Of a DNA stretch of 60,698 bases, positions 232 through 6,301 are shown piece by piece. A program made the position numbers and the translations under genes. The stretch is from Okeania sp. SIO2B3. Its GTDB lineage: Bacteria > Cyanobacteriota > Cyanobacteriia > Cyanobacteriales > Microcoleaceae. The notes beneath the pieces are model-generated. The model was not told the origin of the DNA. It worked only from the letters and a program-made list of their open reading frames with translations, and did no database searches. The stretch is from contig NZ_JAAHGH010000001.1 of NCBI RefSeq assembly GCF_010672525.1, positions 1-60,698 of the forward strand. Reading direction: 5' to 3'. The first letter of the stretch is position 1. Each line of letters opens with the position of its first letter.

Positions 232-275
232 CTTTTTGACATCCTCCCCGGCCTAAAGGCACGGGGATTCCTACC
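232..275 (-). repeat. IS200/IS605-type right-end hairpin of the tnpB element
   Basis: The sequence TTTTTGACATCCTCCCCGGC followed by CTAAAGGCACGGGGATTCC forms a hairpin (CCCCG/CGGGG) just beyond the tnpB stop codon. It matches the typical subterminal right-end structure of IS200/IS605 and IS1341-like elements, where the end of the tnpB transcript forms the guide (omega) RNA. The element therefore probably ends near position 232. No guide RNA boundary can be set from this sequence. Confidence 0.6.
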
Positions 276-442
276 GGGCCTTTAGCTCCTCAGCGGGTTG
301 ACGTTTTGCGCTCCGCAAAGCTCCGCTAACATAGGCTGCTGCACCCACCCCTCTTGCTCCCCTCCCGGGAGGGGATGGGGGTGGGTTACGCTTGCCTCCA
401 CGTCCGTTTTTTGTCTCGGACTGCCCGCCCGCGACTAATATA

Positions 443-2344
443 ATTAAAGTCAACGACTCTCTCACGAAAGCCGTTGCTCTTCAAAACGGAGCGTGATACT
501 TTCGTATCACTCCGCTCCTCAACGAAACAGCCTTTTGACATAGGCACATCAAATCAGGAAAATTTGTATATTACATACTCTTTTCCATCAGCATTTCTGC
601 CCCAAACTTGACCTTGTTTGTCTGCCATATATGGAATATCGTTAACCCAGATATAGTTAACATTGTCCCAAGTTTTTAGTAACTCTTCACCCCGTTTTTG
701 GGTGTTGTGTTCCTTAATTTTTCTGAGGTCGTACTTGGTTTTTTCATCGTGGCAATGTCGATGAAGAAGTTGCCAGTTCTTGTATTCATTCTTTCCACCA
801 ATGGCTTGAGGAATGATATGGTCGAGTTCTATAACATCCTCTTCATTGAACCACAGCCCACAGTGAGTACATTTTCCTTTTTGCTTCTTGAGCAGCAATG
901 CCGTTCGCACTGGCATCTCAGGATGTTTACCCATTCTGGTACTCCAGTAGACTAAATCGCCGTTATATGGAGAAGCTTCCCCTTTAACTTTGACAAATCG
1001 AACTATTTCAATATCCGAATGTTTGATTAGTTTTAAGGGGTTTTTTTTCCTCCCTTGTAGCGAATGTCCATTTATTACCGTCAATATTATGAAAGTATCT
1101 GAGATAGACCCATTTTTTTCCTTTGTTTCTATGACGGTGTATTCCCCATTTAATTAGTTTCCATATCAACAAGTGATATAGTTTTTCAAACACTTTTTGA
1201 CTGACTACTGTTGAGTAATAATTGCACCATCCTCTGATGAGTGGGTTCAATCTTTTGATTAAGAGAGATTGGTTAATACCCCTGCTTTTATCAATTATTT
1301 CTGCTAGTTGTCTATAGTGTCTCTTTTGACTTTCTTTACTGGGGGTGATGATAGTTTTAAACCCTAATAATTTGCCATTGACCAATCCTTATGAATACTT
1401 ACCAACTTTAAATTGTCGGATGTTAAACCCCAGGAAATCAAATCCTGGTTTTTCTTGCTCATACTCATTCAGTGTGTGGGTAAGTCTTGTTTTACTCTTG
1501 TTTAGTTCTCAACCCATGTCTTTTAACCATTCAGAGATAATCTCTTTACATCTTTGGACAACGGTTATGTCTTCGTGGAGAAGCACAAAGTCATCGGCGT
1601 ATCGTATAAAATTAAGGGATTTTCTCTTGTCCCTTTGACTCAATTGTGTGCCATCGGGACGTTTCATATCTATGGTATTTGCAAATTCCTTAATCTTTTC
1701 TTCCATTCCGTGGAGGGCAATATTGGCTAGGAGGGGTGATATTACTCCTCCTTGCGGTGTGCCCTCAGATGTGGGGAACAGCTTATTTCCATCCATGACA
1801 CCAGCTTTTAACCAAGCTCGAATTTGTCTGCGTAGGGTAGGATAGGTATTTAATTTTCTGAGTAGCTGTTGATGGTCAATGCGGTCGAAGCATTTGGCTA
1901 TGTCTCCATGACGATACTTTTTACCGAGATTATGGGTAGCACTGTCAGATCGACGAAAATTCTTCTGACACCCTGTACTGTTGACCTTTTGGTACTCAAG
2001 CGCGTATCAATCTATTTCGCTGGTTCGCAGTAACGGTAATTCACACGCACCTTTGCTTACGCTATCCATAAGAACTTACTCACGGGGTTAGGGGTAGATT
2101 CCCCGCTCCTTTCCGCTTCTATTCCCGCTTCAGAGATTGATGGCTAGTCGCTCCCTGGGGAATATGTTTTCACTACAGTGCTTGTAGGGTAAGACTTGGC
2201 CATTTCTAGAGTAATTTGGCCTCACTTACAAGGTTATGAAGTTGTCATGGCTAAAGGATTTAAGTGCGAACCTTACCTTTTATTTGGTTACTTTAGCCAC
2301 GCTCCCCGTCCCTCTTGTTAAGATTTGGGGGAAACGAATCGCAC
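443..2344 (-). mobile_element. Group II intron 2 (1902 nt, internally deleted), inserted in tnpB
   Basis: The minus strand starts with GTGCGATTCG at 2344, the conserved group II 5' end. Domain V is readable at about 485-518 (GAGCGGAGTGATAC, GAAA, GTATCACGCTCCG) and domain VI follows, ending GACTTTAAT at 443. Removing 443-2344 joins tnpB codons ATA-AA and T-ATA in frame (Ile-Asn-Ile). Compared with intron 1 it is 737 nt shorter, and the missing part covers the N-terminal reverse transcriptase blocks. The 5' ends, domain V/VI layout and 3' ends match intron 1, so the two belong to one lineage. Confidence 0.88.
554..1960 (-). pseudogene. ltrA: Broken group II intron-encoded reverse transcriptase-maturase-HNH protein (intron 2)
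   Basis: Reading down the minus strand, fragments appear in the normal order of an LtrA-type protein: HGDIAKCFDRIDH (about 1900), GTPQGGVISPLLANIALHG, FIRYADDFVLLHE (the catalytic YADD, about 1590), the maturase segment LIRGWCNYYS, and a C-terminal HNH endonuclease (554-1084) with CTHCGLWF, ELDHIIPQAIGG and LLHRHCHDEKT. The N-terminal RT blocks are deleted. In-frame stops occur after EWLKDMG (1509) and after GKYS (near 1390), and the maturase and HNH parts are in different frames. The protein cannot be made intact, so any mobility or splicing help would have to come in trans. Confidence 0.88.
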
Positions 2345-2449
2345 TTTATTGCTGCGTTCTCGTCTCTATCGTGTTTTGCTCCACAATTGAGACAAAACCA
2401 TTCTCTCACTGAAAGTTCTAATTTACCTCCTCGAAAACCACAGCTAGAG

Positions 2450-5088
2450 ATTAAAGTCAGTGAAGAAGTCACCCCCTCCACTGCTCTCCAGAACGCAGCA
2501 TGATAGTTTCCCATCACTGCGCTCCTCAGTAAAACAGCTATTGTCATTAGTACGTCACCACAAACATATCTTCGATCCATCTGTAATTTGATGGGATGTC
2601 TGATAGTTGTTTGGGCATGGCACTATTACAGCCAGTTTTGTTGCCAGACCTTTCCAAACTTCCGTCTGTTCTGGTCTTTTCATCATGGCAATGCCGATGG
2701 AGTAGTTGCCAGTTTTTGTATTCGTCCTTTCCGCCTTTTGACTTAGGGATGATATGGTCTAATTCTATTACGTCTCCATCTTTAAAGAACAATCCGCAGT
2801 GGGTACACTTCCCTTGTTGCTTTTTCAGCAGCGATGCTGTTCGCTTCGGCATCTGAGGGTGTTTACCCATTCTTGTACTCCAATAAGCTAGGTTCCCATC
2901 ATAAGGACTGGCATCGCCTTTAACTTTTATATATTGTTGGCTCTTGAATGAGCCATATTCCACGCTTGGTTAAAGGGTTATTTTCCCGTGAGGTAGAAAA
3001 GACCCAATTTCTATTCCCTATTTTTTGCCAATACTTGTTAATCCAGTGTTCGCCTTTGTTGGGGTGTCAACTCTATTGCCCATCTTCGGAGTTTCCAGTA
3101 TAATAAGTAATCCATTCGGTAAAATACCTTTGTTGGACATCCTATGGAAAAATAGTTACACCATCCTCTGATTATGGAATTGAGGTTTTTGATAAGTGCA
3201 GCTTGCGGTTTAGCTTTGTGCTTGTCAATAACTTCTGTGATTTTGGTGTAATGTTCCTTTTGACTTTCTTTGGATGGGGTGATGATTGTGGAAAAACCTA
3301 GTATTCGTTTTTGTGAATCTTTTCCAGATGTATATTTTCCTGCTTTAAACTGTCGGATGTTGAATCCGAGAAAATCGAATCCTGGTTTGTGTCCTTCGTT
3401 TTCTTGCAGTGTATGGATCAATCTGGTTTTGCTGGGTTTTAATTCTAAACCCATGTCTTTTAACCATTCAGAAATAACTTCTTGACACCTTTGGACAACG
3501 GTTAGACTTTCGTGGATGATAACAAAGTCATCGGCATATCGAATTAGTGTTACGGATTTTCTTCTATTTGGGAGGCTGACCTTACGTCCGCTGTCTTGGT
3601 CGATTGGATATGGCGAGGGGACCTCGCCATCCCTCGACCGCTTTTTTCTCTCATATCAAAATCCTTGGCAAGTTCTTTGATTCGAGATTCCATCCCGTGG
3701 AGGGCTATATTTGCAAGTAAGGGGCTGATGACCCCACCTTGGGGTGTACCCTCAGATGTTGGAAACAACTCTTTCCCATCCATCACACCAGCTTTTAACC
3801 AAGCTCGGATTTGTCTGGTGTAGGGTCGGATAGGTATTTAATTTTTCTATGAGTCGTTGATGGTTGATATTATCGAAACATTTGGCAATGTCTGCATCAA
3901 GCACATATTTGGCCTTTTGATTGATTGCTATAAAAATTGCTTCGATGGCATCTTGACATGAGCGCCCTGGCCTGAAGCCGTATGAGGACGGTTCAAATCG
4001 GGCTTCCCATTCTGGTTCTAAGGCCATTTTTACTAGCCCTTGCAATGCGCGGTCGTACATGGTCGGTATTCCCAAAGGTCTTTTTTCATCCTTACCTGGT
4101 TTCGGAATCCATACTCTCCGAGTGGGTTTTGCCTTTGAGCCTATTTTTACTTGGTTGACCAGGATGAGACGTTGCTTTGGGGTCAGCGACTTAATGCCAT
4201 CCACACCTGCCGTCTTCCTACCTTGATTGTCTTGGGTTACTCGACGCACCGCTAAACATTTTGCAGACCATGATTTTGTTAGTAATTTTTGGAGTCTACG
4301 AACTGTTCTGACATCTCCACGACGTGACGCTTTGTAAATCCGATGAATGCAACTTAAAGACACATCTTTGGGCTTTTCGCCAGTTGATGTCCCTCCATTT
4401 ATACATCGGCTTTGGTTCCGTGTTCATAACTTGACATTGCTACTTGTAGCTTTACATTCCGTATTACCGTGAGTCCGTCTGCATATCCTCATCATTACAA
4501 TGAGGCGTTGGCAATTGAGCTCAATCTTTCCCATCTATTACCTACACCTGTGGTAGATTTTCCGTCTTAGCTGACTACTTAATCAATCGACCTTGACTAA
4601 GAGTAATAAATGGGTTACTTCGTTCCAAATAACCATTGGTTTATTCCTTGAGGACGATACTCTCCGCCTATATTCGGGAAACACATATCAGATTGAGGTA
4701 TGATCTCTCCGATTCCCTTAGTCTTTGCCCTTTTGGGACTTAAGCGTGTATCAACCTATTTCACTGGTTTTCACTCAAGACGGTTCGGACGTATCTTTGT
4801 ATTTCTATCCATGGGAACTTGCTGAGGTGGCATTGACTCTAGGTTGAGTTACCTTTACCCTTTCATCCCTGCTTCAAAGATTGATGGCTAGTCGCTACCT
4901 TGAGGGAAAGTGCTTTCACTCCTGTGTCTGGAGGACTGGACTTGAGTTTTCGTTTGATACTTGCTCGCACCAGTATGGTTATTTAGTTGTCATCTGTTGA
5001 GGATTAAAGTGCGAACTCTACCTTATTGGTTACTCAACACAAGCCAATCATCCCCCTATTTTTTAGGTTTCGACTGAACGAATCGCAC
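2450..5088 (-). mobile_element. Group II intron 1 (2639 nt), inserted in the zinc-ribbon codons of tnpB
   Basis: The minus strand begins GTGCGATTCG at 5088 and ends GACTTTAAT at 2450. Domain V lies at about 2493-2527 (GAGCGCAGTGATG, GGAAAC, TATCATGCTGCGT), with domain VI immediately after. Excision joins TG to C-TCT-AGC, making the first cysteine of the TnpB CxxC zinc ribbon, so the insertion site is fixed to the base. The 5' ribozyme domains occupy about 4364-5088. The length is normal for an intron carrying an RT gene. It lies only 105 nt upstream of intron 2 in the host gene. Confidence 0.9.
2547..4363 (-). pseudogene. ltrA: Frameshifted group II intron-encoded reverse transcriptase-maturase-HNH protein (intron 1)
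   Basis: The protein starts at MSLSCIHRIYKASRRGDV (4363) and carries RT blocks VTQDNQGRKTAGVDG, KRPLGIPTMYDRALQ, YGFRPGRSCQDAI, DADIAKCFDNINH, GTPQGGVISPLLAN, IRYADDFVIIHES (about 3520), maturase SIIRGWCNYF and a C-terminal HNH module (CTHCGLFF, ELDHIIPKSKGG, LLHRHCHDEKT). It is in at least four frames. The shift near 3800 is a 1-nt gain seen by comparing CTACACCAGACAA with CTACGCAGACAA in intron 2. Others lie near 3555, 3060 and 2945. A small palindrome (GGCGAGGGGACCTCGCC) sits at about 3611-3627 beside the 3555 shift. All catalytic motifs survive, so decay looks recent, unless some shifts are sequencing errors. Confidence 0.88.
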
Positions 5089-5873
5089 CATACTTGGGAC
5101 GTTGGTTCAAGGGCGACTTATTACTCTAAAATCACGACCGTACTTTTCTGCCTTTCCTTCTAATAGCGTTCTAAATTGCCTCCAACCTAAATCTGATACC
5201 CAACCCACCCCCATCCCCTCCTGGGAGGGGATGGGGGTGGGTTGCGGTTTTTCACCATTCCTGAAACATTCAAATCCTCTAAAACAATCGTTTGGTTTTC
5301 ACGAATTATTTCAGTAGACAATTTATGCAGAAAATCTGTTCTAGTATCCTTTAGCTTGGCATGTTTGCGTAGCATTCCGTAGGAAAATTTAGCCACTTTC
5401 AACCGAGCTTTTTCGTACCTTTTAGAGCCTCTAGTTTTTCTAGACAAAAACTTACTTAACTTACGTTAGCGTTTGCGTAGCATTCCGATAGGAAAGCTCC
5501 TCTGAAAGAGGCTACTTATTAATTCTTTTCTTTAAGGGTTTTGGTGCATCAATTTTTTCTCCATTACTCAATGTAGCAAAAGTTTTGATACCTAAATCTA
5601 TACCTACTGAATTATCAGTTTGAGGTAAAGCTTCAGGCAAAATTTCTACTACAAAACTTAAAAAATATCTATTAGCAGAGTCTTTGATAATAGTTACTGA
5701 TGATGGAGCAGCAGGTAATTCTCACAGGCGAAACTATTTTTAGTTTCCCAATTTTAGCTAAATAAACTTTGTGTTGACCTACTTGAAAACCTCTTCTTGT
5801 AAACCTAGCAGTTTGTTTTGACTTTCTAGTTTTGAATTTAGGAGGTTTAACAGGTCTACCTTTTCTCTTACCT

Positions 5874-5901
5874 AGGGACGTTGCATGCAACGTCCGTACT
5901 T
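5874..5901. repeat. 28-bp perfect palindrome inserted in frame in tnpB
   Basis: AGGGACGTTGCATGCAACGTCC reads the same on both strands and adds a few residues to the TnpB N-terminal part without breaking the frame. The same palindrome type occurs at about 22975-23002, 38278-38304 and 40321-40345, with a half-copy near 40409. Confidence 0.7.
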
Positions 5902-6181
5902 TGAAAAAGTTTTGATAGGCTTGGTTTAAATCATTCAAAGATTGCTGCAATGGTATAGCAGAAACTTCTGATAGCCATTCTCTATTCTCAGTCTTTTTAG
6001 CTTGAGTGATAAAAAGCTTTTGTAGTTCTGAATTAGTGGCTTTATTTTCTCCTGATTTATGCTTCTTTTGGCAGCAAGCTAGACTATCATTCCAAATCAC
6101 ACGGACACAACCAAATAGTTTGGCTAATCGGTATTTTTGTCCCGGTGTTGGATAGATACGATACTTAAATCTAGCTTTCAT

Positions 6182-6270
6182 AATCTGATTATTAAACTAA
6201 CAACATGATAACATATTTATTGAAATAAAATCAACTCAAAAGTCGCCCGCTTATGGGCGAGGCTTTAAAC
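6182..6270 (-). repeat. IS200/IS605-type left-end region and tnpB leader
   Basis: Upstream of the tnpB start on the minus strand is a hairpin (GCCTCGCCCATAAGCGGGCGAC, about 6241-6262) followed by an AT-rich leader. This is the usual layout of the left end of a TnpB-only IS605-family element. With the right end near 232 the whole nested element is about 6 kb, of which 4.5 kb is intron. Confidence 0.5.
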
Positions 6271-6301
6271 CCAATTTTCTGGTAAAAATAGCTTTAATAT
6301 G

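Follow-up and report, generated by a model that had tools for sequence, protein, structure and literature searches.

How does a single transposon gene come to hold two group II introns only 105 nt apart, and are those introns still functional? The question arises at one end of a stretch of 60,698 nt (hereafter the window), comprising the first 60,698 bases of one contig of the 10.0-Mb assembly of Okeania sp. SIO2B3, where an insertion sequence (IS) of the IS605/IS1341 type carries a tnpB gene twice interrupted in this way. We consider it probable that two members of a single lineage of cyanobacterial group II introns, each directed by its exon-binding sites (EBS), invaded this tnpB on independent occasions, and that both introns are now remnants. 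The parts of the locus, read on the minus strand from the start of the gene, are as follows:

236–6283, minus strand: IS605/IS1341-type element, no tnpA seen (extent common to the related copy at locus L123)
5089–6181, minus strand: tnpB exon 1, frame-broken, with domain matches in separate frames and three frames needed
2450–5088, minus strand: group II intron i1, 2639 nt, interrupting the zinc ribbon's first Cys codon (TG|C)
2450–2526, minus strand: domains V–VI of i1 (RF00029), with a bulged A placed by eye 8 nt before the 3' end
2345–2449, minus strand: tnpB exon 2, 105 nt, zinc ribbon and RuvC-III DRDENAAI (domain match, same-genome loci)
443–2344, minus strand: group II intron i2, 1902 nt, in the Asn codon of NAAIN (AA|T)
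443–519, minus strand: domains V–VI of i2 (RF00029), with a bulged A placed by eye 8 nt before the 3' end
271–442, minus strand: tnpB exon 3, with a short repeat inserted before the stop (sequence reading)

Both introns begin with GTGCGATTCG, a 5' end of the GUGYG type, and finish with GACTTTAAT. The earlier note on this DNA, made from the sequence alone, had proposed a search with group II intron models from Rfam, and RF00029 indeed matches the minus strand at 2450–2526 (i1, 53.3 bits) and at 443–519 (i2, 52.4 bits), with domain V in each. Around the two sites the joined frame reads EPTSQV-C-SSCG...DRDENAAI-N-ILVAGGQSETKNGRGG, and removal of i1 and i2 together gives the single-frame reading EPTSQVCSSCGFRGGKLELSVREWFCLNCGAKHDRDENAAINILVAGGQSETKNGRGG. 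Uninterrupted tnpB copies from the same genome provide the standard: among 17 loci aligned at the two sites, out of 30 same-genome loci retrieved, the i1 site (site A) is uninterrupted in 16, the i2 site (site B) in 16, and both in 15, the other two showing one each. Judged against these copies, both intron joins are exact. The note's central claim, that a defunct tnpB contains a pair of group II introns separated by 105 bp, thus stands with its coordinates and in-frame joins; its outer interval, 271–6181, captures a real locus and is slightly short, given that likeness to L123 spans 6283 to 236. Because 105 nt of tnpB exon separate i1 from i2, the pair is not a twintron, in which one intron lies inside another.

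The host gene is recognisable and broken. All three domains of an IS200/IS605 tnpB (HTH_OrfB, OrfB_IS605, and TNB) are present: HTH_OrfB_IS605 (61.3 bits) and OrfB_IS605 (49 bits) match separate frames of exon 1, and Cas12f1-like_TNB matches the joined exons with 51.9 bits. The best NCBIfam model for the first tnpB piece is IS200_TnpB, whose 86.2 bits fall below the cut-off of 425, as the piece is a fragment. There is no open tnpB reading frame, exon 1 requiring three, and since that exon carries frameshifts and inserted short repeats, the gene would be dead even without its introns. Similarity to L123, a copy in Okeania SIO1I7, starts at 6283 and stops at 236, beyond which the flanks differ; these points therefore mark the limits of the element, the flanks not being common to both loci. 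A hairpin at the left end is better than most shuffled sequences (z -3.04, 2 of 200 shuffles equally good), and one at the right end is not special (z -1.10, 23 of 200).

Genes of this kind abound in the assembly. All 150 zinc-ribbon candidates that were scored, of 357, match tnpB, which by simple arithmetic (150 copies of about 1.1 kb) puts the share of tnpB in this one genome at about 1.7% or more. Short dispersed repeats, which we take to resemble the small dispersed repeats of Nostoc, also recur in and around these genes. One of them lies in the reverse transcriptase (RT) gene of i1:

3584–3648, minus strand: short dispersed repeat in the i1 RT gene (to which 41 of the 49 matches of i1 in the genome belong; L123 lacks 55 nt relative to i1)

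Other short repeats of this kind occur in the window tnpB at 358–393 and 5202–5249, and elsewhere in this genome such repeats are inserted without breaking the TnpB frame (L219, L222, L226, L227), giving a repeat-derived FAQHDLG between DRD and NAAIN in L222 and L226, and SCGMLRK in L219.

The two introns belong to a lineage that recurs in tnpB. A first sample gathered loci by similarity to i1, i2, or the intron-encoded protein (IEP) and yielded 37 distinct copies with a recognisable 5' end, both window introns included. Twenty-three of the 37 reside in tnpB, 18 by joins recognised with a hidden Markov model (HMM) of TnpB and five more (L078, L104, L130, L238, L241) by reading the other 19; these cases are not all independent events, because four Okeania i1 copies form one family. 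A second sample used the intron 5'-end pattern GTGCGATTCGTTNNNNNNAAAYC alone, which matches in 124 of 388 genomes of the order and not once in a reversed control. It consists of places among the matches listed, which did not reach the window's own genus, and its 30 + 58 loci (at most three listed places per genome, one already studied locus skipped) reduce to 85 distinct copies, 27 of them in tnpB. Divided by the first stem, copies with a CAG start, as in i1, are in tnpB in 14 of 19 cases, against 13 of 66 for the rest, which is suggestive, and no more, of a preference for tnpB among the CAG copies. Of the 27, three were recognised solely by a second TnpB HMM, built from four intron-bearing fragments; its three hits include L283, seemingly identical with L104 of the training set. 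With this HMM set aside, the counts are 24 of 85 overall and 11 of 19 in the CAG subgroup. Ambiguous hosts such as L083, L240, and L251 were counted as non-tnpB, and L310, with 127 nt of exon before the join and the reading DHNAAL, as a miss. At least four copies (L261, L283, L284, L290) are common to the two samples. Outside tnpB, hosts identified by eye include a DnaB-like helicase gene (L248 and L191, in one genome) and the RT of another intron (L094). Some tnpB cases look intact—L239, with a 430-aa joined frame and an IEP of 621 aa, and L166, with 392 aa and 613 aa—and many other copies of the lineage are broken.

Within tnpB, three codons recur as insertion sites:

Site A, Cys of the zinc ribbon (TG|C): window i1, L123, L097, L130 (L130 by its 5' side only)
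Site B, Asn of NAAxN (AA|T or AA|C): window i2, L239, L166, L245, L255, L078, L241 (L241 by its 5' side only)
Site C, Asp of DRD/DAD (GA|T or GA|C): L086, L092 (5' side only), L246, L252, L100, and the second intron of L090

L254 is interrupted at site B within AG|T. In the second sample, matches to the TnpB model end at position 361 (site C) three times, at 366/367 (site B) seven times, at 202, after the GIDLG-like motif of RuvC-I, twice, at 307 twice, and at ten other positions once each, with three copies in a second TnpB family. Not all of the sites are catalytic codons, several lying near the C-terminus (L091, L105, L257, L287).

How the introns find these codons is suggested by the pairing of each EBS (the guide) with the intron-binding site (IBS) at the end of its 5' exon (the target). 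In the window the relevant segments are:

4696–4702, minus strand: i1 EBS1 (intron nt 387–393), 6 of 7 pairs with the 5' exon end at 5089–5095
4769–4774, minus strand: i1 EBS2 (intron nt 315–320), 3 of 6 pairs with 5096–5101
1952–1958, minus strand: i2 EBS1 (intron nt 387–393), 4 of 7 pairs with its own exon
2025–2030, minus strand: i2 EBS2 (intron nt 315–320), 5 of 6 pairs

Across 34 introns whose 5' exon is defined, a single column of the alignment pairs with each intron's own IBS1, and another with its own IBS2, far better than the remaining columns do, with own-minus-other scores of 7.9 to 9.7 and a next best of at most 2.6. Introns pair with their own exons at a mean of 8.85 of 12 positions, versus 5.10 for the exons of other introns; in a permutation test for which the EBS columns had been chosen on the same data, none of 20,000 permutations reached the own pairing (highest 6.5). 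Guide and target also change together at one and the same tnpB Cys codon, where EBS1/IBS1 are CATAC/GTATG in the window i1, CATTT/AAATG in L097, and CAGGT/ATTTG, with two G-U pairs, in L123.

Taken together, we suggest that the invaders were members of one cyanobacterial intron lineage whose IEP bears RT, maturase, and HNH domains, and that each arrived by retrohoming, the ribonucleoprotein of each intron reverse splicing into the tnpB codon that matched its EBS1 and EBS2. The guide of i1 would have been aimed at the first zinc-ribbon Cys, and that of i2 at the Asn of RuvC-III NAAxN. For such introns tnpB would represent many near-identical and dispensable targets per genome: because conserved codons recur across tnpB copies, a guide that fits them would find many places to land. 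i1 may have spread among the tnpB copies of the genus, its EBS1 changing along with the target, and the i1 maturase and the i2 ribozyme would afterwards have decayed in a tnpB that no longer mattered.

Several observations weigh against this reading, besides the choice of EBS columns already mentioned. In the second sample, 58 of the 85 copies of the lineage lie outside tnpB, and residence in tnpB is not clustered on the intron tree, requiring 8 changes against a shuffled mean of 9.4, with 84 of 500 shuffles as low; because residence is not clustered beyond chance, no single tnpB-specialised clade emerges. Labels for the insertion site require 5 changes on the same tree. Strong for the lineage taken together, the pairing is mixed within the window itself, where EBS2 of i1 pairs at just 3 of 6 positions and EBS1 of i2 at just 4 of 7. 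Among the relatives, L130 has an EBS1 mismatch at the shared Cys codon, and pairing is poor in L091, L093, L104, L237, L246, and L250. Finally, the movement of i1 could be due to ordinary transposition of the IS that carries it, or to gene conversion, an alternative to which we return below.

That the two invasions were separate is suggested by the kinship of the introns. The earlier note had taken them for two closely related copies, which fails on two counts: i1 and i2 are 68–69% identical over their alignable parts, reaching up to 84% solely in short ungapped stretches, and they fall on separate branches of a DNA tree from which the guide (EBS) columns had been removed. There, i1 groups with L123, L097, and L130 (support 100), and i2, on a long branch, with L237 (support 99). 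Close kinship is ruled out on these grounds, and we infer that i1 and i2 are distant relatives that would have arrived independently. The i1 relatives, from three other Okeania genomes, are 92–97% identical to it and occupy the same Cys codon, in tnpB exons that are 69–79% identical and with flanks that are not shared where compared. Elsewhere in its own assembly, i1 finds matches of 67–71% in pieces below 600 nt, or the short repeat; for i2, the best two matches in the assembly are i2 itself and i1 (two candidates per genome having been scored). The heavier decay of i2, and the lack of a close relative within the genus among the matches listed, hint that it is the older of the two, without settling the order of arrival.

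Decay has taken a different course in each intron. Over its whole length i1 aligns with L123 at 95%, and this full-length alignment places domains I–III (D1–D3) in i1, with domain limits taken from the consensus fold. That fold, computed with RNAalifold on 16 relatives and divided into domains by reading the structure, puts the end of D1 near nt 474, D2 at 475–559, and D3 at 566–619 in i1 numbering. The IEP of L123 is a single open frame of 607 aa with RVT_N, RVT_1, GIIM, and HNH; its i1 counterpart has stops, frameshifts, and the inserted short repeat in the RT frame. The i1 ribozyme is thus apparently complete and its maturase gene broken, such that any splicing of i1 would at best depend on a maturase provided in trans; among 16 RT matches in total, the best RT outside the window in this assembly is 54% identical to an intact IEP of the i1 type. 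Damage to i2 is of another kind:

1904–1913, minus strand: i2 deletion point, about 760 nt lost (end of D1, D2, D3, and RT start), from alignments and repeat spacing

At this point i2 jumps from nt 432–441 to the equivalent of nt 1237 in L093, or about nt 1192 in i1, and the spacing of repeats between i2 and i1 changes from 1988 to 2744. Because the jump falls across these domains, i2 has lost the 3' part of D1, together with D2 and D3, and the first part of its RT gene, yet it retains D5–D6. With domains I–III incomplete, i2 is a group II remnant and probably not a working intron. A group II intron copy without such ribozyme domains should not splice by itself, and i2, on the evidence of its sequence, should not splice in cis.

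A second tandem shows that the arrangement, though rare, is not unique, so that the uncommon layout pointed out in the earlier note was correctly described as uncommon and has at least one counterpart. On a contig of Symploca sp. SIO3C6 (L090), one intron (528–3111) interrupts the RuvC-II motif (IAVEDLNIKG) and a second (3329–4841) the RuvC-III Asp codon, tnpB codons other than those interrupted in the window, with 217 nt of exon between them and both joins in frame. After its first 12 nt the second intron continues at the equivalent of i1 nt 658 and is thus without D1–D3. The downstream intron is gutted in both tandems, which, with two cases, makes no rule.

Among alternatives to two independent, guide-directed invasions, the one that survives best is that i1 was carried into place by transposition of the IS, gene conversion or uneven decay having then made the exons differ more than the introns. 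The end of L123 likeness at the element ends lends it some force, since the whole element could therefore have moved; however, i1 is 95% identical to its L123 counterpart where exon 1 is about 75% and exon 2 about 79% identical, and EBS1 and IBS1 differ jointly between copies, so we regard carriage by the IS as unlikely, though it is the alternative to be taken most seriously.

Considerably weaker is the view of the earlier note that the locus holds two close, still spliceable introns, a two-step splicing substrate that would yield a 105-nt middle exon. Both introns do keep their ends, domains V–VI, and in-frame joins, and spliceability may hold in part for i1, whose ribozyme is apparently complete; on the other side stand the 68–69% identity and separate branches, broken IEPs in both introns, a frame-broken exon 1, and in i2 the loss of D2, D3, and the 3' part of D1. 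With these ribozyme domains gone from i2, splicing of the locus in two steps is unlikely, and this view as a whole is very improbable. Least probable of all is a composite intron in which D1–D3 of i1 would act with D5–D6 of i2, joining exon 1 to exon 3 and skipping exon 2: i1 and i2 share phase and end sequences, so that such a join would stay in frame, and the downstream intron of L090 likewise has no D1–D3, but i1 has its own D5–D6, plain deletion accounts for i2, and the insertion phases differ between the two L090 introns, in a comparison of only two cases.

Other intron arrangements were seen in passing. Twintron-like members of the lineage carry a second RT-bearing stretch within the outer RT near i1 nt 870–936 (L254, L255, L122), and L097 has an RT-bearing insert near i1 nt 1140. 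The window opens within a further group II intron, whose 3' end makes up its first 127 nt (RF00029 match on the plus strand, 47–124, 46.9 bits). These are identical to the end of contig C119 (loci L007 and L008), where two units of a 2319-nt intron seem to be joined head to tail with zero exon between them, either a real tandem or an assembly artefact. Contigs C61 (at its start, L038) and C181 (at its end, L037) break off within one base of the i2 site and have different flanks; a hidden intron at these ends was considered and dropped, as just ordinary tnpB 3' ends are visible there.

Returning to the reading of two separate invasions by one lineage, the result is a variant of a known mobile-intron strategy, because a comparable case has already been published for Thermosynechococcus elongatus (Mohr et al. 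2010, PMC2882425), where three group II introns without open reading frames (ORFs) occupy a conserved site of ISEL1, which belongs to the IS200 family. As here, the F4 and twintron families of that organism derive from one cyanobacterial stock and have differing EBS, and insertion into mobile elements is named as a route of proliferation (PMC2882425). Unlike the introns described here, the F4 introns have no ORF, and the passages cited mention neither tnpB or catalytic codons nor two introns in one IS gene (PMC2882425). More than one group II intron per gene is familiar from another filamentous marine cyanobacterium, Trichodesmium, for which a twintron was shown and genes with several introns are mentioned (Pfreundt and Hess 2015, PMC4649490); there, splicing was shown in a conserved host gene, whereas the gene interrupted in the window is a defunct tnpB, and one of its introns is gutted. 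In IStrons, likewise, a tnpB-type IS is nested with a self-splicing intron, but these units join group I introns to IS605-like elements, with the IS inside the intron or at its 3' end, in place of a group II intron inside tnpB (PMC4227781, PMC3073962). Enterobacterial group II introns, too, reside mostly in mobile elements and at the same position of related IS, the hosts in the passages cited being ISPlu15-like and IS427-like elements (PMC3522654). Among the open-licence papers listed, none was seen to describe group II introns that target codons of tnpB.

What sets the present case apart is an unusually clear, multi-genus record of tnpB as the target. The window locus itself is a double wreck, valuable mainly as a pointer to this recurrence, in which tnpB, a relative of the Cas12 nucleases, is the repeated host of another RNA-guided element. 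Any effect of the insertions on TnpB is speculation. The TnpB guide RNA spans the 3' end of tnpB and the right end of the element (PMC8612924), and because it covers that 3' end, insertions in the last tnpB motifs may spare much of it. A doubtful extension would have several branches of the lineage settled in RNA-guided nuclease genes, each re-aiming its guides at those codons of tnpB that are best conserved (RuvC I, II, and III, and the zinc ribbon), leaving most of the guide RNA uninterrupted and the nuclease dependent on splicing; if this were true, splicing would gate TnpB in a two-layer conflict between two RNA-guided mobile elements. More generally, these introns offer a system of many cases for an old question, namely how mobile introns go on reaching places where insertion is safe: in tnpB they meet a dispensable, multi-copy gene whose codons are hardly able to drift, and as guide and target are both readable, re-aiming can be traced across species.

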